A DNA stretch of 64,000 bases from contig JAIWND010000066.1 in assembly GCA_025330725.1 (NCBI GenBank), positions 1 to 64,000 of the forward strand, in the 5' to 3' direction. The notes under the pieces are model-generated. The model did not search any database. It was not told the origin of the DNA and was given only the letters and a program-made list of their open reading frames with translations. Positions 1-64,000 of the stretch are shown here, piece by piece. Each line of letters begins with the position of its first letter. The first letter of the stretch is position 1. The DNA is from Chlamydoabsidia padenii (Eukaryota > Mucoromycota > Mucoromycetes > Mucorales > Cunninghamellaceae). The translations under genes were made by a program, and so were the position numbers.

Positions 1-3
1 TAT

Positions 4-14
4 CGGGATTTGAA
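4..14 (+). promoter_or_regulatory. CGGGATTTGAA element, eL31 promoter
   Basis: Exact copy of the window-wide CGG-NN-TTTGAA element. It lies about 75 bp before the probable donor of a 5'UTR intron in the eL31 gene, which places it close to the expected transcription start. Confidence 0.6.
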
Positions 15-89
15 TATTTATAAAGGCGGGGGGACATTCCGAGATCCCACTTTCTTCTTTCCTTTATTCTTCGAATCCACACTTTTAAA

Positions 90-257
90 GTAAGTGCTTG
101 ATGCGGGATGGATAGATGAAAACATGTAGATGTATGATTGGATGAATTGATGAAATGGATGGATAAACACATATTGGCGGATGGATGGACTACATGATAT
201 TTTGAAAAGGGGGTGTTGACAATGTCCGACTAATCATCATTCCTTGCTTTTTTATAG
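90..257 (+). other. Probable 5'UTR intron of the eL31 gene
   Basis: GTAAGT at 90-95 and a TTTTTTATAG acceptor ending at 257, one base before the ATG. No coding potential between. Leader introns are common in fungal ribosomal protein genes. Not confirmed by transcript data. Confidence 0.55.
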
Positions 258-769
258 ATGGCCAAGGATCAAAAAACCAACAAGCGCTCCACCCTCGCTG
301 ATGTCGTTACTCGTGAATACACTATTCATATGCACAAGCGTGTCTTTGGCCGGTAAGGAAGAAAAGGAAAGGAAAAATAAAAAGGCCAACACTAATGCTC
401 TCTCTCTCTCTCTTTTTTTTTTTTTTTTTCGACAGTGCCTTGAGAAAGCGCTCTCCTCATGCTGTTAAGGCTGTCAAGGAATTCGCTCAAAAGGCTATGG
501 GTACCTCTGATGTCCGTATCGACCCCGCTTTGAACAAGGCTTTGTGGGCTCGTGGTGTCAAGCACACTGACCACCGTATCCGTGTCCGTATCGCTCGTAA
601 GCGTAACGATGACGAAGATGCCAAGGAAAAGCTCTACTCCTATGTCACCTACGTCCCTGTTGCCTCCTTAAAGGGTAAGACATGATTTATAAAAGTCATA
701 TTATGGTATACTCATTTTTTTCCCTTTATTGTTATAGGTCTCGAAACTTCTGTTGTTGACGACGAATAA
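258..769 (+). CDS. RPL31: 60S ribosomal protein eL31
   Basis: Structural protein of the large cytosolic ribosomal subunit. Three coding exons: 258-352, 436-674 and 738-769. The spliced product is about 121 aa, the usual eL31 length. It carries the family landmarks [11 protein letters not shown] near the N-terminus, [17 protein letters not shown] in the middle and [20 protein letters not shown] followed by YVTYVPV near the C-terminus. The ATG is preceded directly by TTTTTTATAG, and a GTAAGT donor sits at 90-95, so a 5'UTR intron (about 90-257) probably ends exactly at the start codon. Codon use is strongly biased to preferred C-ending codons, as expected of a highly expressed gene. The first coding intron has a long T tract (about 412-429) before its acceptor. 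Identification is secure; the 5'UTR intron is inferred from splice consensus. Confidence 0.95.
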
Positions 770-1287
770 ATTGGATCGATTATCACCTCATATCTTCACT
801 AGTGATAGATTATGTGTATTATTTGGAAATATTGATTAATAAAAGAAACTTGATATATCTTTATCATGCTTGTTTGGTTTTATTTGTTGTAGCATTCGTT
901 TATTGGATAGGGGAGGGGGATAGGTTTGAATGTATGGATTATATGGTCAACTTTTGCATTGATCGTTTTAAACTCCGAGTGCCCGACTTCACTCTTTTTT
1001 TCTTTAATGTGCTGTCCAATGGACAAAATCATTATATTTAAAGCACATGTGGTCAATCAAGTTATTAAAGTTGTGTGATCGATAATGGGGGATTTCTTTT
1101 GCATAATGAACCCGTCAGCTTCACGTGGCGCCCAGCAAATCATTCATTTTAATACCAGACAACATTGATGTAACATACCATCTCATGCAATCTTTATACA
1201 ATCTTAAGTGAGTTTACCGACAAGAAAGTCTTTGATCTTTTACCAAGTTATAGGAGCTTGACTGGGAATGCTTCAAAGGTCATGGAT
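770..1287. other. Intergenic, eL31 to NVJ2-like gene
   Basis: 3'UTR/downstream DNA of eL31 and the promoter of the next gene. AT-rich; no convincing reading frame or RNA gene seen. Confidence 0.5.
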
Positions 1288-1298
1288 CGGGACTTGAA
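1288..1298 (+). promoter_or_regulatory. CGGGACTTGAA element (one-base variant)
   Basis: Variant of the shared element with CTTGAA in place of TTTGAA, 95 bp upstream of the NVJ2-like ATG. A TTTC-repeat/poly-T leader follows it. Confidence 0.5.
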
Positions 1299-1393
1299 TT
1301 ATTTGGCACATAAATTTCTACTAGGTCGACTTTTTTAGTTTCTTTCTTTCTTTCTTTCTTTAAACTTTTTTTTTTTTTCTTCTTCTTCCTTGT

Positions 1394-3438: not shown

Positions 3439-3772
3439 ATAACCAAACCAGTAAATAAATCACAACCCTTTGATATCATCAACAAGAATCCTTGAAATGG
3501 ATATACCAGTATAGATTATAGTTAGTAGTTGAATAGATTATAGTTGTAATTAAATATTTGTTAGTTATAGTTTTATTACTATGTACTGTTTTTTTTTTTT
3601 TTGGCTTGCTACCACTATTGAACAAATAAAAAACACATGTAAAATTCGAACAAACAGGGATGGATGAGACTTTGTGTATTTTGCAGTGTCATTCTAATCT
3701 ACCATGACTCTTCCAAAAAAAGTAAATCCATCATTCATGCAGATTCGAACGCCGACGAAACTTTCAAAAGTG
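3439..3772. other. Intergenic between NVJ2-like gene and tRNA
   Basis: AT-rich 3' region with a short poly-T run at about 3591-3602. Only the element variant at 3744-3754 stands out. Confidence 0.4.
3744..3754 (-). promoter_or_regulatory. CGGCGTTCGAA element variant near tRNA
   Basis: On the minus strand reads CGG-CG-TTCGAA. It lies 3' of the tRNA-iMet gene, not upstream of an obvious protein gene. TTCGAA also resembles the core of a tRNA B box, so it may be coincidental. Confidence 0.3.
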
Positions 3773-3778
3773 AAAAAA
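3773..3778 (-). terminator. Pol III T6 terminator of tRNA-iMet
   Basis: Six consecutive T on the minus strand, two bases after the tRNA discriminator base. Confidence 0.75.
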
Positions 3779-3779
3779 G

Positions 3780-3851
3780 TAGCTTGTGGAAGTTTCGATC
3801 CTCCGACCTATGGGTTATGGGCCCATCGCTCTTCCCCTGAGCTAACAAGCT
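3780..3851 (-). tRNA. Initiator tRNA-Met (CAT)
   Basis: 72 nt cloverleaf without intron or encoded CCA. The acceptor stem AGCTTGT/ACAAGCT is perfectly paired with discriminator A, and the D arm is GCTC/GAGC. The anticodon stem is ATGGG/CCCAT around the loop CCCATAA (anticodon CAT). The T arm is GGAGG/CTTCC with the loop ATCGAAA. Initiator hallmarks are all present: A1-U72, three consecutive G-C pairs next to the anticodon loop, and A54 instead of T54 in the T loop. Position 33 is C, as I recall for vertebrate initiators, where S. cerevisiae has U. Elongator tRNA-Met is excluded by these features. It stands alone, not in a tRNA cluster. Confidence 0.92.
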
Positions 3852-4210
3852 ATCTATTGAAAAAAAAATCTTGAAGTGCTATATAAAGCATATGATCGGG
3901 GTTTCAAAAAATCACGTGATCGTTTTTGAGTGGGTGAATCACTCCCACTTTTCAATTTAATTAGTTAATCATCAAGTAAAGAATGTGCTGATCATTTATT
4001 GTAAGAACAAAGAAAGAAGAGAGAATAGTGGTGATATGATTCAAATTAGCACTTACTTTTGGGAAAAGAAAGGGGGTACATTATGTGATAATGACAATGA
4101 AAGAGCTTCCAACTGCAGGTCATTCTTACTGTTTTCATTTAATCATCCAATTGGGGGCAAACTATATCCCCTTTTTGGGATGCACGAATTGGGATTGAAA
4201 ATAAAAGGTC

Positions 4211-4242
<32 letters not shown>

Positions 4243-6210: not shown

Positions 6211-6390
6211 ATAGTTTTATTTGTATTCTTTACCTCTCTTGTTTATTCTATTCCTTTATATATGTCTTCCATCTCTCTCTCTCTCTCCTTTTTTATATAA
6301 CTATATATATCCATGCTAACAAATTGATCAATAAAAAAACCCGCCTTTATATAATCTTTATTTATGTATTGTGGGGTATTTTTTTTATAT

Positions 6391-6751: not shown

Positions 6752-7230
6752 CTTCAATAGATCCGACACATCCTTATCAATTTCAAGTACAGTTATTAGG
6801 TGATTCACTTTTTTTGCATGACATCTTTGGTGGTTCGATGTCAAACATCACACTTTTTGCATGAAAAGTCGGGATTTGAAAAACAAGAATTTTTTCTTTC
6901 TTGGAAAGTGTTTTCCAAAAATAGATTGCAAGGTACATTTCCCACATCGTATACATAGTTTTGGTCCAAATGATCTGTCTTATTAGGAGGGAAGGGATAG
7001 ATCCGGCCAATATGATGAGCAAGGTTTATCATTTTACCCTATTGGGTCAAACTCTACCTCTTGTCCCTTTTTTCTTTTATGCTCAAATCAATCAAAGGAA
7101 GAAGCACAGTAACATCATTCTAAATTATACATGGTATATCTTTATCAAACTTGATGTATCATAAGAAAGTTATTTAAGAAAGGGGTAGCAACATGGTGGA
7201 TTACTCGTGGCATTCCTTTGTGCTGTCAAG
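6631..7230. other. Intergenic with T33 tract and orphan element
   Basis: Contains a T run at about 6719-6751, followed by CTTCAATAG that looks like an intron 3' end, and an exact CGGGATTTGAA at 6870-6880. Short frames here do not look coding. It separates the small minus-strand gene from ERV46. Confidence 0.4.
6870..6880 (+). promoter_or_regulatory. CGGGATTTGAA element
   Basis: Exact copy 240 bp upstream of the small minus-strand gene and 440 bp upstream of ERV46. It may serve the small gene. Confidence 0.45.
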
Positions 7231-7241
7231 CGGGATTTGAA
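7231..7241 (+). promoter_or_regulatory. CGGGATTTGAA element, ERV46 promoter
   Basis: Exact copy 81 bp before the ERV46 ATG, followed by a C/T-rich leader. Confidence 0.65.
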
Positions 7242-8914: not shown

Positions 8915-11129
<2,215 letters not shown>

Positions 11130-11367
11130 ATATTGAAATACATCACATAACACTCCCAAACATCCCCCATTTTTTTTTACATTAGTTAGTATTCTTCCCC
11201 CTTTATTAAAAAAAGACTCTTTTAAGTTTTAGTCTTATTTTTTGTTTGAAATAAAAAAAACTAGCCATTTCAAAAGATAATCCAATAGATGATGTTACGT
11301 GGTGGTCGGTCATTCCGGGGTTGTGTAACAAAAAAAGTATGGGTAATTCAAATTCCGGCGACTGAGG

Positions 11368-11672: not shown

Positions 11673-12644
11673 ATGGATTATGATGAAGAACAACACTTGT
11701 ATAAAAATGGGTTTAACATTAAAAGGTAAAACAGAATAAAATGAAACTAAACAAAAGGTAAAAGGAAACCCAACAAGTTAACTGGTATTCTATAGAGCCC
11801 GCTTTTTCTCTTCAAGAACACAACATGGTTTGACTCGTGCTGAGATGATCCAGGGGATGGCCAATCGACTATTGTACTCCAACTTTTATATTGCCTTGTA
11901 TTTATGTCTTGGTATACTAAGTCTGGTGTCTATTATCATGGTAAGGTAAAAAAACAAAAAACCAGGTAGAAAACAAAAGGTCAGACTAATATAAAACATT
12001 ACTTGTCAAGTCTAGTGTCTACAAGAAACATGGTAAGAACCAAATTATATATATATAAAAAAAAGTCCTACTAACACCATATAGTCCTTCAAGAACATTC
12101 ATCTTATTTGAAGCCATTATCAACTTTGCTATGATCATTGAAGTCACTATTCGGGTATTGGCTTTAAGAAAGGTAATGTATACATGCAAATACACAGAGA
12201 GGAGAGTATTAATTTAAAACAAGATCTTTATATAGACCTATTGGCAATCTCTTTGGAATGTGGTGGATATTATCTTGGTAGGATTATGTGTAATCACATT
12301 GATTTTATTAGCGACGGGCTGCTCTACCACCGAACGAACCGAAGCCATCTTTGATTCTATATTACTGATCATCCGGAACTGCTTCCAATTCTTCCGACTC
12401 TGTAGGATGGCGAAAAAGTAAGTAAGGAAATAATCTCTCCCTTCCTTCATGGTGGTGGTTAATCAACTTTTTTTGTTGCTGTAGGAACAAGTACTCAATC
12501 TATGCCAAGACGACTCGAATCGATTTTAATAATCTACCTGACGAGCGACCTCCTTCCAATGAATACTCAAGAGACGATCGATTACGACAAAGCTTTTATT
12601 TGGATGATGATGATGATCCGGATCTTGAACAGGATCGATTTTAA
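11673..12644 (+). CDS. Voltage-sensor-like four-helix membrane protein
   Basis: Six exons: 11673-11725, 11796-11940, 12016-12032 (17-nt microexon), 12085-12172, 12236-12417 and 12485-12644; 214 aa. The spliced protein has four hydrophobic segments: SNFYIALYLCLGILSLVSII, FILFEAIINFAMIIEVTIRV, NVVDIILVGLCVITLILLA and a weaker fourth (DSILLIIRNCFQFFRLCR). The E..IR and WN.VD motifs match S2 and S3 of the ion-transport/voltage-sensor fold. The fourth helix carries only sparse Arg residues (IRN..QFFRLCRMAKK), so sensing strength is uncertain. There is no pore domain and the C-terminal tail is Asp-rich, so it resembles stand-alone voltage-sensor proteins. The microexon is needed to keep the frame and gives the CPS motif before helix 2. 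Function in fungi is unknown to me. Confidence 0.65.
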
Positions 12645-12979
12645 TTACACTGCCTATAACTAGTTAGTCCTTCCCTCTTTACTAGATTAGATATTACCTT
12701 TATTTTTATATATTGACTGTAATAAACGTATAGTTTTTTATGTTATCATGATAATACATTGTTAATGTTGACATACAATGAATACTGGGTAGGTAATTGG
12801 ACCCTGATTTTTTATATATGTGTTCAAACCCCGCCGATCGTCCCCTTCCATCTTTCACACCCACCCATTTGATTATATAAAGACCCATTTATGACAAATA
12901 AAAAAAAGAAAGGTAGAGACAACCTTTCCAATTCAATTTCTTTATTAATGTATTTATTATATAATATCCAACTATTAAT
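12645..12979. other. Convergent intergenic region with orphan element
   Basis: Lies between two convergent 3' ends. It contains the exact element at 12823-12833 but no start codon context on either side. Confidence 0.4.
12823..12833 (-). promoter_or_regulatory. CGGGGTTTGAA element, orphan
   Basis: Exact match lying between the 3' ends of two convergent genes, so it is not a conventional promoter copy for either. Confidence 0.35.
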
Positions 12980-14354: not shown

Positions 14355-15368
14355 GGTGGATGTGTTGTGGAAGAGAGAGAAAAAAAGTGCCTCGAAAAAA
14401 AAAAAAAAAAGTTTGCTTTCATCAAAAGCCACAAGCGGGATTTCAATCTATTCATCAGTGAGAGAAAACTCCCCCTCCCCTTGGGGTGGACTATTATGCA
14501 TGCTATTAAAAGTTATTAGAACAAGCCAAAAGTGTCCATTCATACAATATATAGATTAATCAGAATGAAAAGATGTTGTCTCTCCACTTGAATAAAGTGG
14601 TATTGTCGAAGAGAGAAAAGAGTTCATAGTCGGGACTTTAATTTTCCACCTTGATTTTCATGCATATGGCTTTCCCCGTGAGAGATCGCCAAGAGTGAGT
14701 GATGGCGGCTGTTTAAGAAAGCAGGGCATTATCTTGGGACTATATAATTCTTCTTATGACCTATACTAGTTTGTAACTCGATTCTATTTCTACGGACATG
14801 CTACTCTCGACATATACATGTTCTCGCTAATCTCATTTACACTAGTACTTAAAGAAAACACCCCCAATGCGCATCTCATCTGAAAACAACTGTTTTTTAA
14901 TTTAATTGGCCAATTCCTTTTTTTTTTGTGGTATAGTTAACAGATCAAAGTGATTTAGTAGCATTTGAAATAACAACAGGTACAGATCAAATTGAAAAAC
15001 CGACAGACAAAAAAAAAAAAAAAAAAGCTTACCAACAGAGCGGAATGACACGGAGGGGACGAACCGAAATTCATGTGAAAAAAAAAGTAAGATCTACCCC
15101 ACAATTGGACATCCATTAGGTCATCGTTTTCCATTACACAAAACCAAAAAGTGGTAGGATAAAGCCTATCCTAGGAAGAAATTCAACTCTGACCTAGTAT
15201 GTCCTTGATTTTGCATTTACATAGTGCGAGGTGTGTCTTGGAATCAACATATGAAAATTTGGAACCTAGCGGAGTTTTCATCTTTGTGGATTTTTATTTC
15301 ATTTAAAAAAAAAAGCTCATTTTCCTTTCTTCTTCTTTTCAATCAATCAATAACTTTTTATTCTCACA
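14355..15368. other. Intergenic, divergent zuotin/carrier promoters
   Basis: About 1 kb between divergent genes. Element variants at 14436 and 14631 lie on the zuotin side. No exact copy on the carrier side. An A18 run is at about 15009. No coding exon recognised. Confidence 0.45.
14436..14446 (+). promoter_or_regulatory. CGGGATTTCAA element variant, zuotin promoter
   Basis: One-mismatch form (TTTCAA) 81 bp upstream of the zuotin ATG. A second looser form (CGGGACTTTAA) lies at 14631-14641. Confidence 0.45.
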
Positions 15369-16708: not shown

Positions 16709-16719
16709 CGGGATTTGAA
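16709..16719 (+). promoter_or_regulatory. CGGGATTTGAA element, orphan
   Basis: Exact copy about 190 bp downstream of the carrier gene stop codon, with no assigned gene following. Confidence 0.45.
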
Positions 16720-16893: not shown

Positions 16894-16904
16894 CGGTGTT
16901 TGAA
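16894..16904 (+). promoter_or_regulatory. CGGTGTTTGAA element, one of a facing pair
   Basis: Exact CGG-NN-TTTGAA copy, 12 bp from an oppositely oriented copy at 16917-16927. Confidence 0.45.
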
Positions 16905-16916: not shown

Positions 16917-16927
16917 TTCAAATTCCG
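16917..16927 (-). promoter_or_regulatory. CGGAATTTGAA element, one of a facing pair
   Basis: Exact copy in reverse orientation. It is about 90 bp before a short ATG frame (near 17010) that soon ends. Confidence 0.45.
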
Positions 16928-18062: not shown

Positions 18063-20633
18063 TTATGGTTTATATACTAGTTCTTCTACAAAAAAGCCAC
18101 AGTTCTTTTTCAATGCGTTCACGATACTGTCCGCATTATCGTACTTTTTAAGATGTCGATCAACTAGGGCCTGGGTAAAGTTTCTCGATATTATCCGTCC
18201 ATCACGAGTCGTCAATAGTTCCTTGTATGTCAAAGATTTGAGTCTGCTGTGTATTTTTGGGTCGAACCTATACAAATAAAACGATTAGCTTGTGTTCTTC
18301 TTTTCTTTTTCTGGAGGCTTACTTTTTCAAAAGATCATTAAAGTCAGCATCAAATAGATGTATCACTAATGATATTGCTTGGGCCAAGAGACTGATGAGT
18401 TGATAGAGCTCTTGTATGTGTGGTGTTCTAGAGGATGATTGAGGGTCGATCGAGCTGCTGCTTTCACTATAAATATAAAAGACATTATTCAGTTTCTTTC
18501 GTACCATTCGTTTTTTCTTTACCTGTCCAAGTAATGTCGTAGGCGTCTTAGTACTTGTTGGATAGTTAATAGATGTTGTCGGTTTGTTGTGCTTTGATAC
18601 TGATGTTGATTTGTGCTGATAGGTCTATAGTGGAATAGTATTAAAAAGTAGAGGTTAGTACAGTAGTTAAGATTTTTAAAAAAAGCAATCATACTTACAC
18701 TTCTTTTATAATTGGCCGAGTCCATATACACCCAATCACACGATAGAGATACAGAGCTAGACCATCATGGAAGCATGTACTTTGTGATTCTTGTGAAGAA
18801 GGGTGATGTCCATATTTATTCAGTAGATCAGAAGCGCCTTTTCCCTTGTCGATTGAGTACTGGTCATTCCATAACACTAATAAAAGATTTAGAGTAAACA
18901 TTAGCAAAGTGTCCTTTTGTTTAATGAGATCAGACTTACATTCAAGTCCGTTGGGAATGACAGAATCAGCATGACCGATAATCCTAAAACACAAAGAAGA
19001 GACTTGAGTGGCACCAAAATGTTCAATAAAAGCATCAAAGTCAGTTGCTCGGCGATGAATATCAAGTCCAGAGGCCATCAATAGATTTTGTAACATTTCC
19101 AACGGTCGTTGCTTCAATAGTAGTATTATACCCGTTGTTGTGAATACCAGGAATAGTCGTGGGGTGTTGAAAGGTGTTGATGATGCCAATTCGTCAAGGT
19201 GGAATGGAGATGTTGTGATTTCAGATATAGAGATAATGTTGCCTTCGATTGCTTTACTATTATACATTTCATGGAATCCACATCGTCCGCCCTATTATAA
19301 AATGTAGGGTGAGTGAATAAAACAGTTGGCCGAGTCTTTTTATTTATTCTGGGAAGTTACCTTTCGAGCCATGTAACCAATATCTGGACAAGACAAAGTC
19401 AAAGTCTCGATACCATTATACGAATTCGCCAACATAAAGACGCCATTATTGTAGAAAGACTTGGATATTGATGTTGGTTGAGTCGATGTAGCCATGGGTG
19501 GTGGTGTTCGGACATGAACCAGTTCGATCCCATTTGGTGTGCCATCGAATGGAATGGTTGAATCGTGTTTAAAGTGCGAAAAGTATAGTCGACAGCCGTT
19601 AGAGGTGACAGCTACAAGTTGGTAATGTTTGGATTCATTGGGTAACGTCGGATGGATCGATGTGATGGTAAAGTTGTTGTTGTTGTTGATCAAAGGACTA
19701 TTTATACACATATGTTTGGCCTTTTCACCGATTCCTGTTCCACTAGCAACAGTAGTAAATTCTTGACCATTTCTGCCAAGATAGGATACCTTGTGTGTTA
19801 TTATAAAACAAAAGAGTATTGTTATTCAGGGCCATATTTCATTATCTTTGCTTACCTTAATAGTTGATCTTTGGGTAAGTTGATATAAAACGTGTCCGTC
19901 ATTACTGAGGGCAATAGAAACACAAGGATCTAATAAAAAGGAGAATCGAATCATCAATACCATTGTTATTCCATTATATGTGATTAGTTGAAGATTACCA
20001 TGTATCCCACCAAAGAATAGTTTCATGCGATCACCAGTATGATTCATCTTATAGCATTGACTTGTAAACCACCCTTCATCACTCTATTAAAAAAAAAAAA
20101 AGAGTAATCAATACAAGTCATTTCGCATAATTATTCTTCTTTTTTCTTACCTTATAAACCAATTCCCATACGTTCCCATCACTACCAGTCATAAAGACAC
20201 GACCAATGTTTGTTCCCATGATACTAGTGAATCGAATACCGTCAGAGAAAGTTTTAATCCCACTGTTGTAAAAAGTGATAGAGTCAACCAAGTTGTCGTC
20301 ACATTTATAGGCCAAGGCGATAATCTTGATGTCCTGAGTCGTGGCGATAATAAGGACATGAGTGATATCCTTGCTGAATACATTGGGTTTTGGTTTGACA
20401 ATGGCGACGCTAATAATGTCATGGGTGTCGTCGTAGGTGGTGGGTTCTTGACTAAAACAGTGTATAAAACAGTGTGGAGAATGTAAGTAACTTGTCAATT
20501 ATTCTTTTAATGAGTTCAGTTTACCTATTATTATAGTTCCAGAGCATTAATCGTTTATCCACAGCAAGGTAAGCACGGTTGATTTCAGAAAAGATACCAG
20601 CTGGTGATGAAGGTTTGCCTACAAACAGATTTA

Positions 20634-21460: not shown

Positions 21461-24400
21461 CAACTTGTTTTTTTCTTTTATCAACTTTGTAGGACCGTTT
21501 TTACAGGTAAAGGCACCACCACCCCTCCCTCTTCTCTATTCTCTAACACGTTTCACAATCTCAAGCACTCTACTTTGTCTTTTTTTCCCTTTAATGTAGG
21601 AAACAAGAAGTATACCCACTTTTATGGAATCAGACTGATCTCTCCAAGTTCGTAATCTCTGTTGCTTTTAATGGTGGTCCTATAGGTAAAAAGATATATA
21701 AAATTGGTCTTTTGCATTGGATTTAACCCCTCTTTTAAACCACGTCCCGACAAAGCCATGATACGAGACGACAAAAAGGTGCTTTTGCTGCAAAAACAAC
21801 ACCCAATCAAGCCAACGATTTTTATATACACTGCTTCCGGGAAACTTGATAATCAAATTCAGGTATGAGAAGAAGAAGAAAAAAGCACTTTGCGGGGGGG
21901 GATATTAATGCATCACTTCTTCTTTGTGTTTTTGTGTGTGTGGGGGGAAAGTGGGATAAAGGCCGCATTGTTACTTTAGGATGGTCTGATCAAGAACAAC
22001 TAGTTGTCGTTGCTGAAGATGGCATTGTCCGGTTATATCCACTATATGGTGATCACACTCAATTTACACTTGGGAAGGTATGTATATGAAAATAAAATGG
22101 GATGGAAATGTTGAAAACTAAATACTTTATATCATCTATCTTCAATTGGTAGGAAGCTGAAGAGTATGGAATCATTAGCTGCCAAGTATGGGGTGGTGGT
22201 TTGATGGCGATGACAGGAAACTATCAACTGATCGTGGTGGACAACTTAAACGAACCGCAACCGAAACCAATGGCCGAAACTGGGTTAATGGAGCTGCCTC
22301 ATAGCTGGACAATTATTCCTCCTCAGTACACACTTAGTCGCCATGTGGAAGTGCTCATTGCTACTGGAACCACTATACTGGTGGTGGATACTAAAGAATC
22401 TCAAGATCAGGTACAGTCAATCGGGGGGTGGGGATCAACTTTACCAATTAGATGTTTTATTTATGTATATGTAACATAGTTTTTACAAAAAGGTCCTTTT
22501 ACAAAGATGACTGTGTCTCCAAATGGCAAATTCTTGGCTCTCTTTACCGCCGAAGGCAAACTCTGGGTGGTCTCGGCTGATTTCCAGAAGAACATCTCTG
22601 AATTTGCTACAAAGTCAAAGATCCCTCCTCAACAACTTGTATGGTAGGTGTGGAAAAAAATGACTGCACTTTTACCAGACAACTAATCTGATGGCTTGTA
22701 TGATATTATTGTTGTTTAATTTAGGTGTGGTACTGACTCTGTTATCATGTATTGGAACAATATTGTGTTGATGGTTGGGCCCTTTGGTGACTGGGTCAAG
22801 TTTTCGTATGATGACCCCATCTTTCTATCCTCTGAAATTGATGGTGTTAGGATCACAAGTAATGATAAATGTGAACTACTACAAAAAGTACCAGGTAATA
22901 GAACAAAACAGGGAACAAAAGTAAAACAATATAAGATATTAATCGTCATCTCTTTCTCTTTCTCTCTACTATCTATCCTAATATTAAACCATATTATCCT
23001 ACAGCTGCTACCGAGGATATCTTCAAGATTGGATCAACTTCACCTGCTGCGATATTGTTTGATGCTCTCGATCATCACGAGGTAATATGTAGTATAAAAA
23101 AATCAGCAAGCAGCTATTAATTAACATTTAACTTTATACATTACAGAAAAAAAGTCCCAAAGCTGATGAATACATTCGATCTATTCATGTAGAATTAGCA
23201 GAAGCTGTTGATTCTTGCATTGATGCAGCGGGGTTTGAATTTAATCATCATTACCAGAGATCACTCTTAAAGGTAAAAACAAGCTGTGGATACCATGATG
23301 TAACCAGAAACTGATTTTTTTTATATAAGATTAGGCTGCATCTTATGGTAAATGTTTTTTGGATCAATACAATGCTGATCGATTTGTGGATATGGCTCAA
23401 TCTTTGCGGGTATTGAATGCTGTTAGACATAATAAAATTGGAATCCCTCTCACCTACGCGCAGTAAGTTGATTAAACAAAAAAAAGAAAACATTCATACT
23501 AACCCACAAATTACTTTTTTTTTTTTTTTGAACTTTTAATATTCAAACAAGGTACATACGCTCTCCCGAATCTCTTGTGGACCGACTTATTCAACGACAT
23601 CAACATTTATTGGCACTTCGCATTGCAGAACACCTGAATATCAAGACAGACAAGATCTTGATTCACTGGGCTTGTGCAAAGGTAAGTCATGGTTGAACTA
23701 GACAAAAGAAGGTAACATAAAAACTCTTCTTCTTTTTTCATTCTTATCGTTTGTTATTGGATATTTAGATCAAAATCTCGTCCAAGGATGAAAATGCGAC
23801 TTGTAGGATGATTGCAAGAAAACTCACTATATCCCGAGGTCTACCATTTGCCCAAGTTGCCAAGGCTGCTTACAATATGGGCCAAACTCGACTTGCATTA
23901 AAGGTAATAGAGAAAAAGGAGTGGGGGATCCAGGGGGGGGGTGGATTGGGGTAGGGACCGAAGGGGATAACAGGAAAAGAAGATGAACATATCTTCTGCA
24001 TATGTAGTTACTAGAATATGAACCCCGTAAGGCCGATCAGGTACCATTGCTAATCTCTATGCAGGAAGATGAAGCATCGTTGATTAAATCCATTGAAAGT
24101 GGGGACACTGACTTGGGTAAGCATAAATATACATAAGTGCTTTACTCTTTTTTTTTTTTTTTAATGTTACTAAACTTGGATATTCTTTTTTTAGTCTACT
24201 TTGTCCTTTTCCACCTCAAACGAAAATTTGATATGGGTGAATTCTTCCGGATGATCAACAACAAACCTTTGGCATGCAGATTATTGGAGGTGTATTGCAT
24301 GAATCAAGATCGGGAACTACTCAAGGACTTTTACTATCAAGATGGTCGATCAATTGAAAGCGCTAATGTTACCTTATCTGAAGGATTCGATCACAATGTA

Positions 24401-28621: not shown

Positions 28622-28822
28622 TAAAACATATTCCAGGAGAGGGAGCATCAACACTACTGAGTCTCATTTTAACAGTGAAGAAACCATAACAGTATGAAAA
28701 TAACAATACTCGTTGTAGAGCATCTTTTGCATTGACATGTACCAAAAAAGGGACGAGCCTTTCCCTTCCCCCCAAAATCACGTAAATTGAACTCCCACCA
28801 GGCTTTGAAAGAACAAACTTAT
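27784..28822. other. Intergenic, no convincing gene
   Basis: AT-rich with a T39 run at 28582-28620. Frames crossing the run encode poly-Lys and are rejected. GTAAG- and TAG-like sites exist but define no open exons I can support. Confidence 0.4.
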
Positions 28823-29066
28823 TGCAAACCCCGCTTACCCTCGCCTTTAATCTTAAGAGAGCTCTACTGCCTTAATAGACAAGTGATGCTCATGACAAAA
28901 GTGACCATAAGCATTCCCTAGCCTATTTCCAACAAAGTTTACATGATGGCCATTGTACCAAGTCCACTGTATGGAGCAGTATAGCCTCAAGATCGTTTTA
29001 CCATGACTTTTGTAAAAAAAAAAAAAAGTTGCAGAATGGAAAATTGACACACAAGATAAAACTTAC

Positions 29067-29077
29067 TTCAAAACCCG
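29067..29077 (-). promoter_or_regulatory. CGGGTTTTGAA element in tandem repeat copy 2
   Basis: Exact CGG-NN-TTTGAA match at the repeat-unit start. Confidence 0.45.
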
Positions 29078-29315
29078 CTTACTCTCGCCTCGAATCTTGA
29101 GAGTGCTCTACTAGCTTAATGAACAAGCGATGCTAATGACAAAAGTGGCGATGTAGACATTATAGCCTATTTCCAACAAACTTTACATAATGACCAATAT
29201 ACCAAGTCCACTGTATGGAGCAGTATAGCCTAAAGATCGTTTTACCCTGGCTTTTGTAAAAAAAAAAAAAAAAAAAGTTGCAGAATGAAAAATTGACACA
29301 CAAGACAAAACTTGA

Positions 29316-29326
29316 TTCAAAATCCG
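29316..29326 (-). promoter_or_regulatory. CGGATTTTGAA element in tandem repeat copy 3
   Basis: Exact match at the start of the third unit, 249 bp from the copy 2 site. Confidence 0.45.
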
Positions 29327-29919
29327 CTTACTCTCGCCTTGAATCTTGAGAGTGCTCTACTGCCTTAATGAACAAGCGATGCTAATGATTAAAGTGGCGA
29401 TCTAGACATTATAGCCAATTTCCAACAAAATTTACATAATGGCCATTGTACCAAGTACCTTGTATGGAGCAGTATAGCCTCAAGATCGTTTTAAGCTGAC
29501 TTATGTGAAAAAAAAAAAAAAAAATTGTTGAATGAGATTGCGATTCGACGGTACTCATTTTCAAGCCTGGCCGGGGTTCAAATTATTCCTTTTTTTCTTT
29601 CTTTCTTTTAAACATTATCTACCAAGTCAAGGTGCATTCGTAGGCTCAACTTGAAACGAAAAACAAACAAACAAAAAAGAAGGTAATAATCAATAAAGTA
29701 CTAGTATAAATGTACTAATGTGCCCTTTGATAAAGACTTACGCAATAGGATCCTGAATGTGTCTGATGCAATAGAGTACAAATTCATGGTGGCCTCAGTA
29801 TACAAGGAAAGGCTTGGTTGTAAATAACTAGTCAAGTGAAATAACTTGGAAGCTTTCACGATAGGTAAAAAGGCTTTATGACTTTATATTGATGCGTACT
29901 AACCATTTCCTTTTTAACT

Positions 29920-31446: not shown

Positions 31447-31457
31447 CGGGATTTGAA
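31447..31457 (+). promoter_or_regulatory. CGGGATTTGAA element
   Basis: Exact copy 54 bp before the short ATG at about 31512, with a C/T-rich leader between. It supports a transcription unit here. Confidence 0.55.
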
Positions 31458-32836: not shown

Positions 32837-32847
32837 TTCAAAGCCCG
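32837..32847 (-). promoter_or_regulatory. CGGGCTTTGAA element, BBE-like gene promoter
   Basis: Exact copy, reverse orientation, 124 bp before the oxidoreductase ATG. Confidence 0.6.
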
Positions 32848-36774: not shown

Positions 36775-37199
36775 GGGAAGAGAGAGAAAAAGGGAATAAT
36801 GGAAGGGGGAGGGGAATAAATACCACCTGGGAGGGTCCACCAACCAGCGAAAGGCCACTAAATTCAATGTCCGCACATTTGCACCACTATCCTTCCCCCC
36901 TTTTTCTGATCCCCTTCAAGGGTACTCGCCACTTTGATAAGGAGTAGGACCATGTTAAAAAGACAATGAAGTGGCGTATGTTTTCTTCCTTGATTGAATG
37001 GTGGATCTCCCATTCATTCACTTGAATCAGCCTAATCCCTCCCCGTGGCTTTCTTTTTGCTATCGTCTCTTTATGCACCGAAGTGATTTCTTCTATAGGT
37101 GACCCAAAATCGGCGTTTGAAAATCTCTCCCTCCAAAAAAAAAAAAAAAAAAAAAAAGGAAATGCTCTGTTTTTTCTTTCTTTCCTGTAATTATCTCTA
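36627..37199. other. Divergent promoter, HSF and NST-like gene
   Basis: Contains an A24 run (about 36750-36773), an element variant on the HSF side at 36863-36873 (CGGACATTGAA) and an exact element on the NST side. No gene seen. Confidence 0.5.
37111..37121 (+). promoter_or_regulatory. CGGCGTTTGAA element, NST-like promoter
   Basis: Exact copy 78 bp before the ATG. Confidence 0.6.
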
Positions 37200-38810: not shown

Positions 38811-38821
38811 TTCAAATACCG
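38811..38821 (-). promoter_or_regulatory. CGGTATTTGAA element, orphan
   Basis: Exact copy with no assigned gene within 300 bp on either side; nearest end is the NST-like stop codon at 38423. Confidence 0.4.
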
Positions 38822-39703: not shown

Positions 39704-39714
39704 CGGCGTTTGAA
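39704..39714 (+). promoter_or_regulatory. CGGCGTTTGAA element, MID1 promoter
   Basis: Exact copy 90 bp before the MID1 ATG and about 80 bp from the possible divergent minus-strand start. Confidence 0.6.
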
Positions 39715-39804: not shown

Positions 39805-41415
39805 ATGATTCCATTCAACCTTCTTATATTTATAACCTCCTTGGTTTTATCCTTCCTCATGTCTGTTTATTCACAATCAACCAATGCACTCGAAAACAAT
39901 CGGATTCTTTTATCCAATATCACATCCAGTGGTCAACAACACTTTTACTTTAACACACAAGGATCCCTATCAAAACGACTAGTGACTTTTAACGGTGGAT
40001 CTTTAACAAAACGGGCACCTACGACCATCTACTTGACACTTACCAGCTGCACTCAACCCACACCACCACTCAATTACCAAGGAGAGATTCCCAGTATCGA
40101 TCTCTACCTGTCGACTGTCAACAGTAATCCTCTTCCTGGACCTACCAACCATCAAAACAACAACACTGTGGACGATACCCTTCCAGGACGAATCAGTTGG
40201 CAAACCAACTCGGGGTCTATACCTGAACTATGGATTGGTGTAGCAGCACCCACTTTGACTCCTGGTTGGACTGGACAATGGACATATGAACTGGCTATTT
40301 CGACAAGTCGTAAGTGAATCTCACAATATATATAAAGGAAGGCATTGTTACTAATATATATATATATATATATATATACTTTATACTTAAGAATGGATGC
40401 ACCCTTTAAACCTGCAAAATGATACAGTGGCTTTGGAAGATACTGATAACTCACACGCTCTCCTTGTCACCAAAGATACAACAATCAATATGACAGCATT
40501 GATCACACAGGATGTCCCAAAGGAATTGAAGTACTCTTATTGTGCGGCGAAATCATATCAAACTGTAGGTGCAACTACCAACAAGACGGAAACGAGACGT
40601 GGTAGTGGTGGTTTACGACAACAAATGATGATAGGCAATCTCACTCAAGGACAAACTTACCAAGTCTACATGATACAACAAACTCCTGCTACCCAGATCA
40701 CAGGCATTACTGTCCCTTTGACCATACAAACGTTATCAGGTAAAACCCTTTCCTTCTCCTCAGGCTCAAGGGGATTTCCTACTAAATTCTTTCTCTCTTC
40801 CTCTTAATAGATCCTCATTGTCGTATGATATATGATTTGGACTTTTGTAGTGATGTAGCATATAGCGTCCCTACTGATCCGAACCAAGACATATGGAACA
40901 TTACCCGCGCCTATGATCAACAAGCCCAAGCCGTCTTTGCCCCATTCGCCGCTGCACTTTCCCAATTCAACTGCAACAATACTCAATACTCTTTGGTACG
41001 AAACTGCGACGATTGTTACCGGGACTATAAACGATGGCTCTGTTCAGTGACGATCCCACGATGCACATCTCCATCACCATGGGTCGATACCCGCAACGTC
41101 ACCAACTCACGTAATCCATGGATCGACACGACTTATCAACCAGGGGGATGGACAGAATTACTACCGTGTATCGACGTATGTTACCAAGTCGTTCAAAGTT
41201 GCCCACCTTTCCTCCAGTTTAACTGTCCCGAAGGTGATCTGGCTGCACAACAATATGGTTATTGGAATGCTTCTGTTCGTCATCCACCTGCTTGTAATCG
41301 ATTGGGTATGAATGAATCTCTCTTGGTTATCAGTGCTGGTGATCTGATGGCTCGCTTCTCTGGGTTGTTATTGCTTATTTGCTGGGTATCACTCTGGATA
41401 TATAAAATAGAATAG
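39805..41415 (+). CDS. MID1: Mid1-type stretch-activated calcium channel subunit
   Basis: Plasma-membrane regulatory subunit working with Cch1 in calcium influx under mating, cell-wall and ER stress. Three exons: 39805-40309, 40392-40739 and 40811-41415; 485 aa. An N-terminal signal peptide (FNLLIFITSLVLSFLMSVYS) is followed by many N-glycosylation sites. The C-terminal Cys-rich domain matches Mid1: CRMIYDLDFCSDVAYSVP, FNCNNTQYSLVRNCDDCYRD, YKRWLCSVTIPRC, LLPCIDVCYQVVQSCPPFLQ and FNCPEGDL. A hydrophobic C-terminus (FSGLLLLICWVSLWIY) could be a membrane or GPI-type segment. Identification is strong from the Cys pattern. Confidence 0.92.
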
Positions 41416-45960: not shown

Positions 45961-46188
45961 CTGAAAATGCCGTCGAAAAGAGTCCAGTAAGAAAGCGAAT
46001 TTTGAAGGCAAAAAAAAACAAAAAAAAAAAAAGTGAGGAAAACAAAAAAAGAAGAATAGAAAAAAAAGGGGGGAAAGGTGATTCTACCTACCCCAAAATT
46101 CAAACCCCGGCTCCGGTTCATAAAAAAGAAAAGCTCCTTCCCCCTCTCAAATTTTTTTCCTTCTTCTTGTTTATTTTTACTTTAAATC
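45961..46188. other. Divergent promoter, kinase and ATP10
   Basis: Purine-rich (pyrimidine-rich on the minus strand) kinase leader, exact element, then the ATP10 leader. Confidence 0.5.
46099..46109 (-). promoter_or_regulatory. CGGGGTTTGAA element, kinase/ATP10
   Basis: Exact copy 79 bp before the ATP10 ATG and about 140 bp from the kinase first exon. Confidence 0.6.
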
Positions 46189-47304
46189 ATGATATTGCAA
46201 TCTACTAAACACCTTATCACCAAACCTCATTGGATAAGGTCAACAACACCATCGATATCACTACTTCGACTCTATTCAACTTCTCCACCTGAAGCTCCAC
46301 CTCCTCTTTTGGGTCAATTCCGTGAAGCACCTTCCATCCTTGGTGCCAGGGATCCACCTGTTGTCGACAAGAACAGTTGGTTACAACGCAAGAAACAAAA
46401 ACTACGAGACTTTACTGATTACGAAAAAGCATTTGCTGCTCATGCTGCTGAACGTCGCCATTTGTAAGTTCAATGATCTATGAATGACTTTGATCTTTTT
46501 AACTTTATATTTTATATAGAGTGGAAGAAGCTACCAAATCATACTTTGCCGATGTCCATGGTAAGAGGAAGAAGGATACAATGCTACTACTATAAAATTA
46601 CTAACCTTGGATACTTAGAAATGCGGAAACATGGGGGGAAAATGTATTATGCCAGTAATAAACTCACTCAACCAGAAAAAGCAGGTTATATGCCTGATTT
46701 TGAAGGGTCGAATGTGAATCGTGAAAAGGTGCATACGACGGATAAATTACTTGGAAAGATCTCTCTCATGTCCTTTGTTTATGCAAAATATGGTGAACCT
46801 CATGTCAATTCATTTGTTGATCCTTTTTTGGCCAAATACAAGCATACTGATGGTATACAATGCATCGAGGTAATTTCCCCACACACATACGATTTGTATG
46901 ATACTCACTCACTTGATTTTTTTAATAGTTGAACGTACAAGAAAATGTCTTGAAACAACTGGTATTGAAGGCCTTTATTCCAAGTATCCGAAAGAACCTC
47001 CCTGATAATCGCAAGGTAAAGAAAAGAAAGAAGAAGAAAAAAGGTTGATAGGTGATTAATGATTTTGTTATTGTTGTTGGGTGGGGTATAGGACAACTAT
47101 ATGTTTTTATTCAAGGATATCACAAAGACTCGAAAAATGCTGGACATGACGAATCAATACATTGGCTATGTCTTTCTGGTGGATGAAGATTGCAAGATTC
47201 GTTGGACGGCTCATGGAGATGCGACACAAGAAGAAGTGGCTAATATGTTGGCCATGACGGATTACTTGAACCAAAAACGAATCAAGGGTTTAGGTGTCAA
47301 ATAG
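46189..47304 (+). CDS. ATP10: ATP synthase assembly factor Atp10
   Basis: Mitochondrial inner-membrane protein needed to assemble the Fo sector (Atp6) of ATP synthase. Five exons: 46189-46463, 46520-46560, 46619-46869, 46929-47015 and 47092-47304; 288 aa, the usual length. The N-terminus is a mitochondrial presequence rich in Ser, Arg and Leu (RSTTPSISLLRLYSTS). Conserved parts are SWLQRKKQKLRDFTDYEK, LGKISLMSFVYAKYGEPHVN, IQCIELNVQENVLKQLVLKA, MFLFKDITKTRKMLDMTNQY and IGYVFLVDEDCKIRWTAHGD. Identification is secure. Confidence 0.94.
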
Positions 47305-48260: not shown

Positions 48261-48277
48261 CGGAATTTCAAATCCCG
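48261..48277. promoter_or_regulatory. Overlapping double element (inverted)
   Basis: CGGAATTTCAAATCCCG: the minus strand carries an exact CGGGATTTGAA (48267-48277) and the plus strand an overlapping one-mismatch copy (48261-48271), forming an imperfect palindrome. Confidence 0.5.
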
Positions 48278-49802: not shown

Positions 49803-49813
49803 CGGGATTTGAA
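49803..49813 (+). promoter_or_regulatory. CGGGATTTGAA element
   Basis: Exact copy, first of three sites (with 49859-49869 and 50014-50024) between the small minus-strand gene and the CLYBL-type gene. Confidence 0.55.
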
Positions 49814-50013: not shown

Positions 50014-50024
50014 TTCAAATCCCG
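50014..50024 (-). promoter_or_regulatory. CGGGATTTGAA element, CLYBL promoter
   Basis: Exact copy 102 bp before the CLYBL-type ATG. Confidence 0.6.
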
Positions 50025-52228: not shown

Positions 52229-53287
52229 ATGTCTTCCTCGACTCCTCCACCCCCTCCACATCATTCTTACCATGCACCCTCACCTACTGATGAGTTACGA
52301 CAACCGATCTACTCTAGTCCAAGTCCTATTCTACCCACTTATGAAGAAACAATACAGCCCAGACGACACAGACAAGGTAGGAGTCAACATGAAATAAAAA
52401 TCATGCATACTGACAATATATTCAAATCCCGCCGTCCTTTTTGGGAATCACAGTGATGGATATCGAACGACTACGGGGCTCGACGCATGAAGAAAAACCA
52501 TCCACAGAATTACAAAGAAGAAGGAGGAAAATACTATCCTACCTTTGTTGTATCTGTTGCCCATGTTGTCCCATGTGGACTCGATATTTGTGTTGTTTCT
52601 TTTTATTTGCCATGATTGTCTTTGCCATGACGGCTGGGATTCTCGCTGCATTATTTCAAATGCCGACTGTCACCTTTCATGGTCCCATTGATCATCCAGA
52701 AGGTCTACCGCGATTCCAACCTTTGGGTACGATGGGTGTATTCAATATCAATATGGGGTTAAACTTTACTATATCCAATCCCAATCTGGAAGGATTGATG
52801 TTCGATAAAATTAAAGCCATTGTGAGTGAAACAAGGAAGAAGAAGGAAAAAAAAAATGCAATGTCTAATCTCCCCCCCCCTTCAGGCTTACTACCCACTT
52901 CAACCCAACCAAGCATTAGGTGGTGGAAATATGACCAATTTATATATTGAACCAGGTACGACCAGTCAGTTTGTGTTCCCTTTCCAACTTCATTATGATC
53001 CGGTGATGGATCCCGGTCATGCCATTTTGTTTGATATGATGACAAGGTGTGGATTACTGGCATCATCCCAACAGCAGAATCTTTTAGTCTATTACGATTT
53101 AAAGCCCACTGTGCGTGTCATTGGTGTGCCTATCTCTCCTACTATTCATCAATCTGCGTCTTTTCCATGCCCTATTCAGGTACAGACATTTATACTATGG
53201 AATAGTAAATAATACATCAACTAACTAACCAACTTTCTATAATAGAGTGGACAATTGACAATGCCAAAAGGATTAGTTTCGGTTTGA
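52229..53287 (+). CDS. Membrane-anchored LEA2-like protein
   Basis: Four exons: 52229-52376, 52454-52821, 52886-53179 and 53246-53287; 283 aa. The cytosolic N-terminus is Pro/Ser-rich with PTYEET-type sequence, followed by a Cys-rich juxtamembrane stretch (LCCICCPCCPMWTRYLCC) likely to be palmitoylated. One membrane segment follows (FFLFAMIVFAMTAGILAALF). The outer domain has LEA14/WHy-like beta features: NMGLNFTISNPNLEGLMFDK, NMTNLYIEPGTTSQFVFPFQ and DLKPTVRVIGVPISP. Plants and fungi have similar single-pass LEA2 proteins; the function is unclear. An exact promoter element inside intron 1 suggests a second, shorter form starting at the ATG 52456. Confidence 0.72.
52421..52431 (-). promoter_or_regulatory. 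CGGGATTTGAA element inside intron 1
   Basis: Exact copy within intron 1 of the LEA2-like gene, 24 bp before the ATG at 52456. Confidence 0.5.
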
Positions 53288-53333
53288 TCTTTTATGTTTA
53301 TCCCATACTGGTCAACCAATAAAACTCGTTTAT

Positions 53334-53344
53334 TTAAAATCCCG
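53334..53344 (-). promoter_or_regulatory. CGGGATTTTAA element variant, HINT promoter
   Basis: One-mismatch form 83 bp before the HIT-protein ATG; lies only 47 bp past the previous stop codon. Confidence 0.45.
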
Positions 53345-55439: not shown

Positions 55440-55793
55440 TGTTAAAGGGATAAAGAGAAGGTGTTATGTTAAATATATATAATGTAAGAAAGAATAATGG
55501 AATTGTGTCAGAAGAAGGGAAGGAAAGAAGAAGAAAAAAAAAAATGAGCTGATCGGCGATGGAAAATAAAACATCCATTCAACGAGAATAGCCGACGAGC
55601 GGGATTTGAAATCCAGCCATCAGTGATTGATTATGGAAGGGGGGAAAAAACCGTCCCACAGGAATCATTTGTCATCCAAGCATGAAAACCCCACCTCTTT
55701 TTTTTTTTTTTTCAATTCAGATTTTCTTCTTCTTTCTCTTTCATTCTATTTTCCCCCCGTCTTATCTATCCATTCTGTTATTATCTTTACATC
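55440..55793. other. Divergent promoter, UPS1 and bZIP gene
   Basis: 354 bp with one exact element near the middle and a T/C-rich leader before the bZIP ATG. Confidence 0.5.
55600..55610 (+). promoter_or_regulatory. CGGGATTTGAA element, UPS1/bZIP
   Basis: Exact copy 160 bp from the UPS1 start and 183 bp from the bZIP start; probably shared. Confidence 0.6.
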
Positions 55794-57716: not shown

Positions 57717-57928
57717 TTTATTGTTTATTCTTTTATAGGCTTTTTGTTTTATGTATATGAATAAAGAATTAAAATAAACCAACAGTAGTACCACGATAAG
57801 TTGATGTTTAATGGGGTTGTAATATCAGGTGTATCTCTATAATAGGAAACCTTCCCTCGCTATGGCCATTGATCTGATTATCAAGTCTCCAACGTCGATC
57901 ATGATCATTCATGCAAAACGAAGAGCGT

Positions 57929-57939
57929 CGGGATTTGAA
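57929..57939 (+). promoter_or_regulatory. CGGGATTTGAA element upstream of carboxylase relic
   Basis: Exact copy about 450 bp before the first recognisable relic exon; a variant (CGGGATCTGAA, minus) lies at 58138-58148. Confidence 0.5.
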
Positions 57940-62500: not shown

Positions 62501-63055
62501 AGATCAAAAAGTTAGTTAAAAGTTGTACCAAGTTAAAGAAGTAGAGTGGGTCTGTACCTGGCTTTATGCTTCGGCCATATGCAGATAGGCGAGGTTTGAG
62601 TTCATTAAAGACCAAGTTTACGAGATGTTTGCTTTTATTGGCATTGGCAATAGAGAATCCATCCTTGAGCGGTACCCAGTCCAAATGACGGTGAATCATC
62701 CAACAACAGAATCTATGAAAGGTGCCGATTCGGAGGAAGTTGGTGTGTGCACCAAGTAGTGAGGGTTGTTCCAATCGTTCCTTCATTTCCTTTGCAGCTT
62801 TTTTTGTAAAAGTCACCACAACAATAGAAGAGGGTTTGAGATTATTTTTCTTGATAAGCCATGTCACTCTGGTAGTTAAAACTATAGTATAAAAAAGTGG
62901 GCATACATTAGTGTCAAGTCCTTGTCAACACGTTTTATGTTACCTTTGGTTTTTCCGGAGCCTGGTCCAGCCAACACCTGGAGATACTGATCGCCCGCCG
63001 TTACTGCTTTTTTTTGGTATTCATTGAGTTGATTAATGTACTCCAAGTTCGCCAT
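59531..63055 (-). CDS. SRS2: UvrD-type 3'-5' DNA helicase, Srs2-like
   Basis: Superfamily 1A helicase that strips Rad51 filaments and limits recombination. Minus strand, about 14 exons starting 63055-62944, 62881-62558, 62479-62368 and ending with 60002-59531. All helicase motifs are visible: motif I LAGPGSGKT, Ia VTFTKKAAKEMKERL, Ib IGTFHRFC, II VLVDEFQDTNTIQYE (split by an intron), III VVGDPDQSIYGWRNA, IV DIAILFRMN, V LSTIHSAKGLEWPCVFIPG and VI RVLYVGMTRAK. After the helicase core the last exon encodes an acidic Tyr/Asp/Glu repeat region, then a Ser/Thr-rich tail with NQLGQQLIK. Srs2 is favoured over bacterial-type UvrD by eukaryotic context and the C-terminal extension; classical PCNA/SUMO motifs are not certain. 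Confidence 0.9.
59862..60002 (-). repeat. Acidic Tyr-rich 22-residue repeat in SRS2 tail
   Basis: Two near-identical units, EYDYHDEFDDYGDFYQNEDE and EYDFYDEFNDYDNFYIDEDD, each ending in an Asp/Glu run. The DNA shows the matching imperfect tandem repeat of about 66 bp. Confidence 0.8.
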
Positions 63056-63152
63056 ACTTGATCAAAGGCAGAGGAGGGTGGGTTTTTGAAAATAAAATAA
63101 GGAAAGGAAAGAGAGAGTTTCAGATTCTCGCATGTTTATAGATTTATTATGT

Positions 63153-63163
63153 CGGGATTTAAA
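63153..63163 (+). promoter_or_regulatory. CGGGATTTAAA element variant, SRS2 promoter
   Basis: TTTAAA form 97 bp upstream of the SRS2 ATG. Confidence 0.45.
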
Positions 63164-63477
63164 AACGCAGACTTGGGCAAAGAGAAGTTACGACGGTACT
63201 GAACATAACAATGAATTATGCACACACACACTCTATACATTGCAATTATTACTCGCCTCTCCCCCTTAAAGGCGCAAATAGATACTACTAATTGATTTAC
63301 CTCGCTTGTTCCTTCTTGATTCTTTTACCGTGTAGACTTGCTATTCCCTCTTATGTCTGGTATGCAAGGTGGGTGGGTGCATTATAGTCTCAAATATAGT
63401 GGGAACAGCAATGTCTGTTGGGGGAGGTCGAATAGTAGATAGCGATAGTAAATATATCTTTTTAAAACATTATCCAG

Positions 63478-63729
63478 GAAAATGGGCATTCGGTCGAAAA
63501 GTTTGATCGTTGGATTCGTGTCCCTGAAAAGAACGTCAAAGAAATCATATCGGTGATCAAATTAGTGCATAGCGTAAGTGGCAATTTAATCACCGACGAA
63601 GAAAGAAAATTCAGGGGTACCCCGCTATTGATTCTCACTTATTCCCATTTCGTATACAGCTCTAGGAGAAAATTCCAAACCAGAGAGAATAATAGATATG
63701 TTTACCTGTATCTATTCAATAAAGAATAA
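63478..63729 (+). pseudogene. Exon-like open frame without start
   Basis: 83 open codons following a TATCCAG acceptor, reading SVEKFDRWIRVPEKN near the start and ending in YLYLFNKE. There is no ATG. An overlapping 33-codon frame just upstream (ATG near 63410) reads YIFLKHYPGKWAFGRKV and could be the same protein with a frameshift. Family not recognised. Relic or internal exon of an unresolved gene. Confidence 0.3.
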
Positions 63730-63922
63730 AACTTTTATTGTTTTGGGGCACGCTGGGAAGTGGATACTGAAAGTCCGCTCGTCATGCAAAAATTAGCACC
63801 AAAGAGGCTAACTGTCATATGATGTCCTCTTATCAAGAACGAGAATTTTATGATTCAGATATGACATTGGTTGATTGATCCATAAAGAAAAAGACAATTA
63901 ATATAAGAGAACCCTCATATGG

Positions 63923-63933
63923 CGGTGTTTGAA
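63923..63933 (+). promoter_or_regulatory. CGGTGTTTGAA element near window end
   Basis: Exact copy 67 bp from the window edge; may serve a gene beyond it. A looser CGGGATTACCA lies at about 63982. Confidence 0.45.
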
Positions 63934-64000
63934 TTAAATGACCTATCATATAATAATAGAGGTGAGGGTCGATCAATAATGCGGGATTACCAATCGGCCT

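Follow-up and report, generated by a model that had tools for sequence, protein, structure and literature searches.

The DNA described here, called the window below, is a stretch of 64,000 nucleotides from the Mucorales fungus Chlamydoabsidia padenii (contig JAIWND010000066.1, numbered C63 here, bases 1-64000). It holds genes for such different proteins as enolase, ERV46, RPL31 and ATP10, and ahead of many of its genes stands the word CGGNNTTTGAA, or CGG-NN-TTTGAA, exactly or with one letter changed. Exact copies number 26 in the window. Dinucleotide shuffles (n = 100) have 0.70 on average and 3 at most. The evidence supports a promoter element that is common to genes of unrelated function, that can face either way, and that lies about 80-120 bp before ATG. 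A preliminary description of the window had proposed such a general promoter element, and on this point it holds up: the genes it named are unrelated in identity, and at 60-150 bp before ATG there are 24 sites in the orientation of the gene and 24 in the opposite one.

Genes and sites in the window

Distances in this section run from the 11-mer to the ATG, using gene models made for this analysis. These models are supported, since all ten window proteins that were checked carry clear Pfam domains. Such domains back the names ERV46, enolase, zuotin, BBE, ATP10, CLYBL-type lyase, HIT/HINT, RPL31 and PRELI. A MID1-like protein is predicted at 39859-41415, and its identity is confirmed by protein match (97% over the full length in C. 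padenii, with Absidia at 60% next by score). The names NVJ2-like, NST-like and SRS2-like are presumptive; they come from the preliminary description and from reading the translations rather than from a family call. The label bZIP-like, for a gene near 55600, is likewise presumptive, read from the translation.

The preliminary description listed 24 exact starts, all of which are real, and placed copies before eleven named genes. Seven of these genes have exact copies. Before ERV46 there is a site at 7231..7241 (+), 81 bp from ATG, and another at 6870..6880 (+), 442 bp away. The enolase site at 9338..9348 (-) lies 116 bp upstream in the opposite orientation, and the BBE-like gene has its site at 32837..32847 (-), 124 bp upstream. 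The NST-like gene (37111..37121, +, 78 bp) and ATP10 (46099..46109, -, 79 bp) both have theirs in divergent promoters. The CLYBL-type lyase has two, at 50014..50024 (-) and 49803..49813 (+), 102 and 313 bp before ATG. MID1 has one at 39704..39714 (+), 144 bp from the modelled ATG, or 90 bp if the in-frame ATG at 39805 is used.

The other four have one-mismatch forms instead. These are CGGGACTTGAA (the CTTGAA form) at 1288..1298 (+), 95 bp before the NVJ2-like ATG; CGGGATTTCAA (TTTCAA) at 14436..14446 (+), 81 bp before zuotin; CGGGATTTTAA (TTTTAA) at 53334..53344 (-), 83 bp before HINT; and CGGGATTTAAA (TTTAAA) at 63153..63163 (+), 97 bp before the SRS2-like gene.

RPL31 is a further case. Its site at 4..14 (+) is 243 bp from ATG, because of a likely intron in the 5' untranslated region at about 90-257 (GTAAGT...TAG), which would end directly before the ATG. 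Ahead of this probable intron the site, a TATA-like stretch and a pyrimidine-rich stretch follow in the normal order.

Further exact sites are found upstream of gene 52612-53322, at 52421..52431 (-) and 180 bp from its ATG; upstream of gene 11673-12644, at 11347..11357 (-), 315 bp from its ATG and some 221 bp beyond the enolase stop; and upstream of the SRS2-like gene, at 63923..63933 (+) and a distance of 867 bp. The site at 55600..55610 (+) lies between two divergent genes, PRELI at 160 bp and the bZIP-like one at 183 bp, and overlaps an inverted variant at 55606.

Of the remaining copies, the one at 12823..12833 (-) is in a convergent intergenic region of 335 bp, with no facing ATG. Three share a convergent region of 1.5 kb (16709..16719 and 16894..16904, both +, and 16917..16927, -), and 57929..57939 (+) is in a convergent region of 2 kb. 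Distal intergenic sites occur at 31447..31457 (+) and, about 320 bp beyond a stop, at 38811..38821 (-). The copy at 48267..48277 (-) is overlapped by an inverted variant at 48261. Two more, 29067..29077 and 29316..29326 (both -), are part of a 245-bp repeat that is described at the end. The two exact copies not listed earlier, at 23229..23239 (+) and 52655..52665 (-), both lie within predicted coding sequence.

The motif and its position relative to genes

Genome-wide (34.2 Mb in 95 contigs) the exact word occurs 4,075 times on the plus and 4,141 times on the minus strand, or 8,216 times in all. The same pattern read backwards is found 84 + 73 = 157 times, so that the difference is 52-fold. 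The preliminary description had asked for this count, and it comes out far above background.

More detailed analysis used a sample of 264 kb, or 0.8% of the genome, which is the window plus bases 1-200000 of contig C1, a stretch that starts at a contig end. The distance between CGG and TTTGAA is strict. A spacer of two letters occurs in 89 cases, and every other spacer from 0 to 12 in 0 to 5 cases each. In 40 of the 89 exact sites, the two spacer letters are GA.

The exact word is only part of the story. The window has 35 one-mismatch forms, where earlier "about a dozen" had been estimated; the five forms named at the time already sum to 19 (TTTAAA 4, CTTGAA 4, TTCGAA 2, ATTGAA 5, TTTCAA 4). 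A profile of 16 positions, trained on the same 264 kb in which its sites were then counted, finds 212 sites, and its reversed version 8 at an equal threshold. Profiles trained on one part of the sample and applied to the other find 48 sites versus 3 reversed in the window, and 134 versus 5 in C1. The exact word makes up less than half of the profile sites. Based on 191 sites, CGG, TT (positions 7-8) and AA (positions 10-11) are near-invariant at 95-99%. Position 9 is looser, with G at 60%, A at 20%, C at 14% and T at 6%. The consensus is about [AG][GT]CGG[G][A]TTT[G>A>C]AA[AT][AT][AT]. Scaling up (8,216 x 212/89) gives roughly 19,000-20,000 sites in the genome, a figure that comes from 0.8% of it and must be read with the caveat that the exact word has a density of 0.34/kb in the sample and 0.24/kb genome-wide.

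Gene models were produced by a hidden-Markov gene finder that had learned from the long reading frames of these 264 kb, and position counts leave out predicted genes with a coding sequence shorter than 240 or 300 nt. The intergenic tables and the tract, stop-distance, cross-validation, proximal/distal and inter-site analyses were made with the 245-bp repeat masked. Its loci were kept in the spacer count, the 212-site profile, the compartment and orientation counts, the k-mer count and the window ATG distances.

The 89 exact sites comprise 81 intergenic, 6 coding and 2 intronic ones. Of the 212 profile sites, coding sequence (137 kb) has 20 and introns (33 kb) have 4. Divergent intergenic DNA has 62 over its 23 kb, tandem 105 over 54 kb and convergent 18 over 14 kb; the last 3 are at ends. 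With repeats unmasked, a site is present in every divergent region (23/23), in 39 of 47 tandem regions and in 10 of 24 convergent ones.

Upstream of ATG the distribution is sharp. The first 60 bp have a single site in 5.6 kb, and the stretch from 60 to 150 bp has 48 in 8.4 kb. With a profile trained on C1, 13 of 43 intergenic window sites are at 60-150 bp from an ATG (expected 4.6, p 4e-4); a profile trained on the window puts 29 of 113 C1 sites there (expected 10.3, p 2e-7). A site is found 40-400 bp upstream in 71 of 98 genes, repeats masked, where random intergenic placement would give about 42. An unguided count leads to the same word: among 7- and 8-mers enriched ahead of 96 genes, fragments of CGG-NN-TTTGAA rank highest.

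Proximal sites have a pyrimidine tract on their gene side. Over 56 site-gene pairs, mean C+T is 81% at +45..85 and 54% in the mirror stretch, and G drops to just 2-5% at +50..79. This is alike for the 29 sites in gene orientation and the 27 in the opposite one. From site to tract centre the median is 56 bp (10-90% range 46-85), and the two positions correlate with r 0.70, in the 46 of 64 genes that remain after filters. On the better of the two sides, a C+T content of at least 75% is reached by 43 of the 54 proximal sites and by 21 of the 112 distal ones; among 2,330 control positions the share is 8.7%. Most distal sites are therefore not hidden promoters, an idea that was considered and dropped on the count of 21 in 112.

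A putative general regulatory factor

The element is probably the binding site of one abundant sequence-specific protein, a putative general regulatory factor in this Mucorales fungus. Two traits of such factors are present: a strict, long motif found throughout the genome, and orientation independence upstream of unrelated genes. The protein would read the CGG in the major groove together with the adjacent, A/T-rich TTTNAA. Once bound, it would keep nucleosomes off. The transcription machinery could assemble on the gene side, and initiate some 50-60 bp away, within the pyrimidine tract or directly behind it. At distal sites, by analogy with Reb1-type factors in yeast, the same protein may delimit transcription units and set the phase of nucleosomes. 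Its class can be guessed from the CGG to be Zn2Cys6.

More tentatively, a single DNA-binding protein might organise nearly all promoters, and the space between genes, in this Mucorales lineage. The word before most genes would then set their starts, and further copies would mark transcript edges and phase nucleosomes, work that in yeast is shared by several factors.

Sites of the Saccharomyces cerevisiae factors Reb1, Abf1 and Rap1 are comparable, in that each is sharply defined and stands upstream of the starts of unrelated genes. The sequence differs, Reb1 for example having the core CGGGTAA, and here one motif lies ahead of 71 of the 98 sampled genes. By analogy, the closest behaviour to that of our element would be that of Reb1. 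For Reb1, promoter opening and polymerase blocking have been proposed, and enrichment near some poly(A) sites is described (PMC7618759). General regulatory factors are placed at directional promoters, where they favour the promoter direction, in PMC9481977.

A number of observations weigh against this reading. No site at 40-400 bp upstream is found in 27 of the 98 genes, and just 53 of 95 genes have one at 40-180 bp. With repeats masked, 113 of 167 intergenic sites are over 180 bp from any facing ATG, and most of these distal sites have no pyrimidine tract. The data do not fit a role in promoters only, because about two thirds of the intergenic sites are distal, mostly without a tract. Genes without a proximal site have a similar pyrimidine content (0.64 versus 0.68, p 0.10), which makes the tract independent of the site. 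There is also the profile of 212 sites, which was trained where it was counted, and the gene starts were predicted, for 0.8% of the genome, by a gene finder made for this analysis. Finally, the evidence comes from the DNA sequence of one species.

Among the literature matches listed, there is no report of a CGG-NN-TTTGAA element in fungi and no description of such a promoter grammar in early-diverging fungi; most subscription literature was outside this search. The occurrences of the 11-mers among the listed matches look like chance by title or abstract opening (primers, tRNAs). Passages of PMC11258239, on 6mA in Mucorales, and of PMC3170328, on yeast promoter motifs, have nothing on the element. 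If one word marks many gene starts, promoters in these genomes could be found directly. It would also provide a handle for isolating the putative factor, and a way to ask how one promoter organiser came to replace another during fungal evolution.

Other explanations

It is possible, if unlikely, that the element is a boundary or terminator first and a promoter element second. The bound protein would then block read-through, and the promoter peak would arise where transcription units separate. Sites are scarce within 150 bp past a stop and denser further on: there are 17 in 5,992 bp at 180-300 bp versus 8 in 14,225 bp at 0-180 bp (p 8e-5), omitting sites within 250 bp of an ATG. Among tandem intergenic regions of at least 600 bp, 5 of 19 combine a site no more than 160 bp from the ATG with another at 187-300 bp past the stop. 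The tRNA-Met gene at 3779-3851 (-) has a profile site on either side, at distances of 31 and 51 bp from its ends (3744-3907). Adjacent sites, too, avoid short spacings, with 9 of 55 below 150 bp where 19.6 are expected, an avoidance that weakens at stricter thresholds (p 0.046, 0.098). However, the density at 180-300 bp past stops is not clearly above that of the remaining intergenic DNA (p 0.055), and 14 of 24 convergent regions have no site at all. The tightest positioning is to the ATG and the pyrimidine tract. The 3' peak that is apparent in the table of intergenic regions is not significant when compared with other distal intergenic DNA, with the same p of 0.055.

Spacings between adjacent sites are enriched at 150-260 bp (18 versus 10.7 expected, p 0.015) and at 340-380 bp (8 versus 2.2), in bins that, like the one below 150 bp, were set after viewing the data, and against a simple null. 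They cluster near 183-248 and 353-374 bp. This is suggestive of the pattern that might be expected if whole nucleosomes fit between bound sites, and together with the avoidance of short spacings it counts in favour of the general regulatory factor.

There is a small chance that we are looking at a true core promoter element, read by general machinery (TFIID-like) and fixing the start site. The tight distances to the ATG and to the pyrimidine tract, with its median of 56 bp, fit this. Against a core element speak the even split of orientations and the sites of equal strength that lie distant from any start or between convergent genes; one profile describes proximal and distal sites alike, and their scores do not differ (p 0.54). 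The term "core promoter", used in the preliminary description, is therefore too narrow.

An ordinary but very widespread activator site, for a Zn2Cys6 protein for example, is similarly improbable. CGG triplets are typical of that family. Gal4 has the site CGG-N11-CCG, and Stb5 a CGG with an A/T-rich extension. The element resembles these in its obligatory CGG, its A/T-rich extension and an occasional CGG-N11-CCG, and the genome has 46 matches to the Zn_clus domain. The overlapping inverted sites at 48261-48277, which jointly form CGG-N11-CCG, and at 55600-55616 make this dimeric site or nearly so. Yet here single sites prevail, far more numerous than a regulon would have, in front of 71 of 98 sampled genes, and the ten whose proteins were checked are unrelated in function. 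The site is read as single and asymmetric, because there is no second CGG beyond position 14. A dimeric site as the general form was rejected: columns 15-17 have no preference for CCG, and single sites are the rule.

Some of the Zn_clus matches come in pairs of equal open-frame length, close together (C12:838259-838531, C17:327872-328138, C51:27544-28092). These are possibly proteins with two Zn2Cys6 clusters.

The preliminary description likened the element to the animal cell-cycle element CDE/CHR, bound by MuvB/LIN54, and this kinship is very improbable. The likeness is that of a CGG followed by TTTGAA, and E2F/DP genes are present (6 matches in the genome). The animal spacing, however, is 4 letters and not 2. 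At spacing 4 there are 320 cases genome-wide versus 176 for the control, which is near background when compared to 8,216 versus 157 at spacing 2. The site-bearing genes are not late cell-cycle genes; the ten window proteins checked include enolase, ERV46, RPL31, ATP10, HINT and PRELI, which are housekeeping or metabolic.

The CHR consensus is given as TTYRAA in PMC4974476. The element has TTTNAA instead: in 191 sites the third letter is C in 4%, the fourth is C or T in 20%, and the first is A in 13%.

The search for a LIN54-like CXC protein, also proposed earlier, found none: the CXC family PF03638 and the human LIN54 domain (E up to 10) have 0 matches in the genome, in a search that ignores introns. 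The DIRP domain of LIN9 has 0 matches there as well. A missed short domain is unlikely, because the same search found the six E2F/DP matches and the 46 of Zn_clus, which with 39 positions is of a length like that of CXC. The absence of CXC and DIRP is likely rather than proved, since neither matched in any of 14 control genomes. LIN9 is reported as lost in Fungi in PMC7225089. Spacing, domains and the positive Zn_clus control led us to reject the MuvB/LIN54 reading, and all this argues that the resemblance is superficial.

A resemblance of another kind is to the B box of tRNA genes, the TFIIIC site with consensus GGTTCRANNCC. The reverse complement of the element, TTCAAANNCCG, looks like a T-loop. 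The invariant letters decide here. In the element these are CCG, whereas the C that is invariant in the B box, the complement of position 9, varies (G 60%). The B box reading was ruled out on this basis.

That the sites are the footprint of a dispersed transposon or repeat is hardly credible: a 245-bp repeat does carry the site, with 22 of the 89 exact sites in one flank group and a strict repeat marker found 378 times genome-wide, but 61 of the 89 share no flank with any other site, two more (16709 and 16894) match merely through the overlap of their windows, and masking the repeat removes neither profile nor peak. The preliminary description had offered such an origin as a way to be proven wrong.

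In the comparison of flanks, the group of 22 is dominated by this repeat. Three more pairs match, one of them over 20 bp only. Together the groups hold 28 of the 89 exact sites, and a laxer comparison gave 30.

The repeat itself is a dispersed tandem repeat with a unit of about 245 bp, mostly in 2-4 copies per locus. The window has one locus at 28809..29511 (-), with three units of 245-249 bp that each carry an exact or one-letter-off site, the exact ones being those at 29067 and 29316. On C1 it occurs at 9469-9908, 27034-27501, 46004-46569, 62743-63678, 83840-84273, 156595-157492 and 177799-178308. Within 21 repeat copies, which were found by whole-unit similarity, only two of 201 windows of 11 bp are better conserved than the site. 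It is exact in 15 of these copies and one letter different in 6. The repeat unit may be a promoter-like monomer that belongs to a mobile element.

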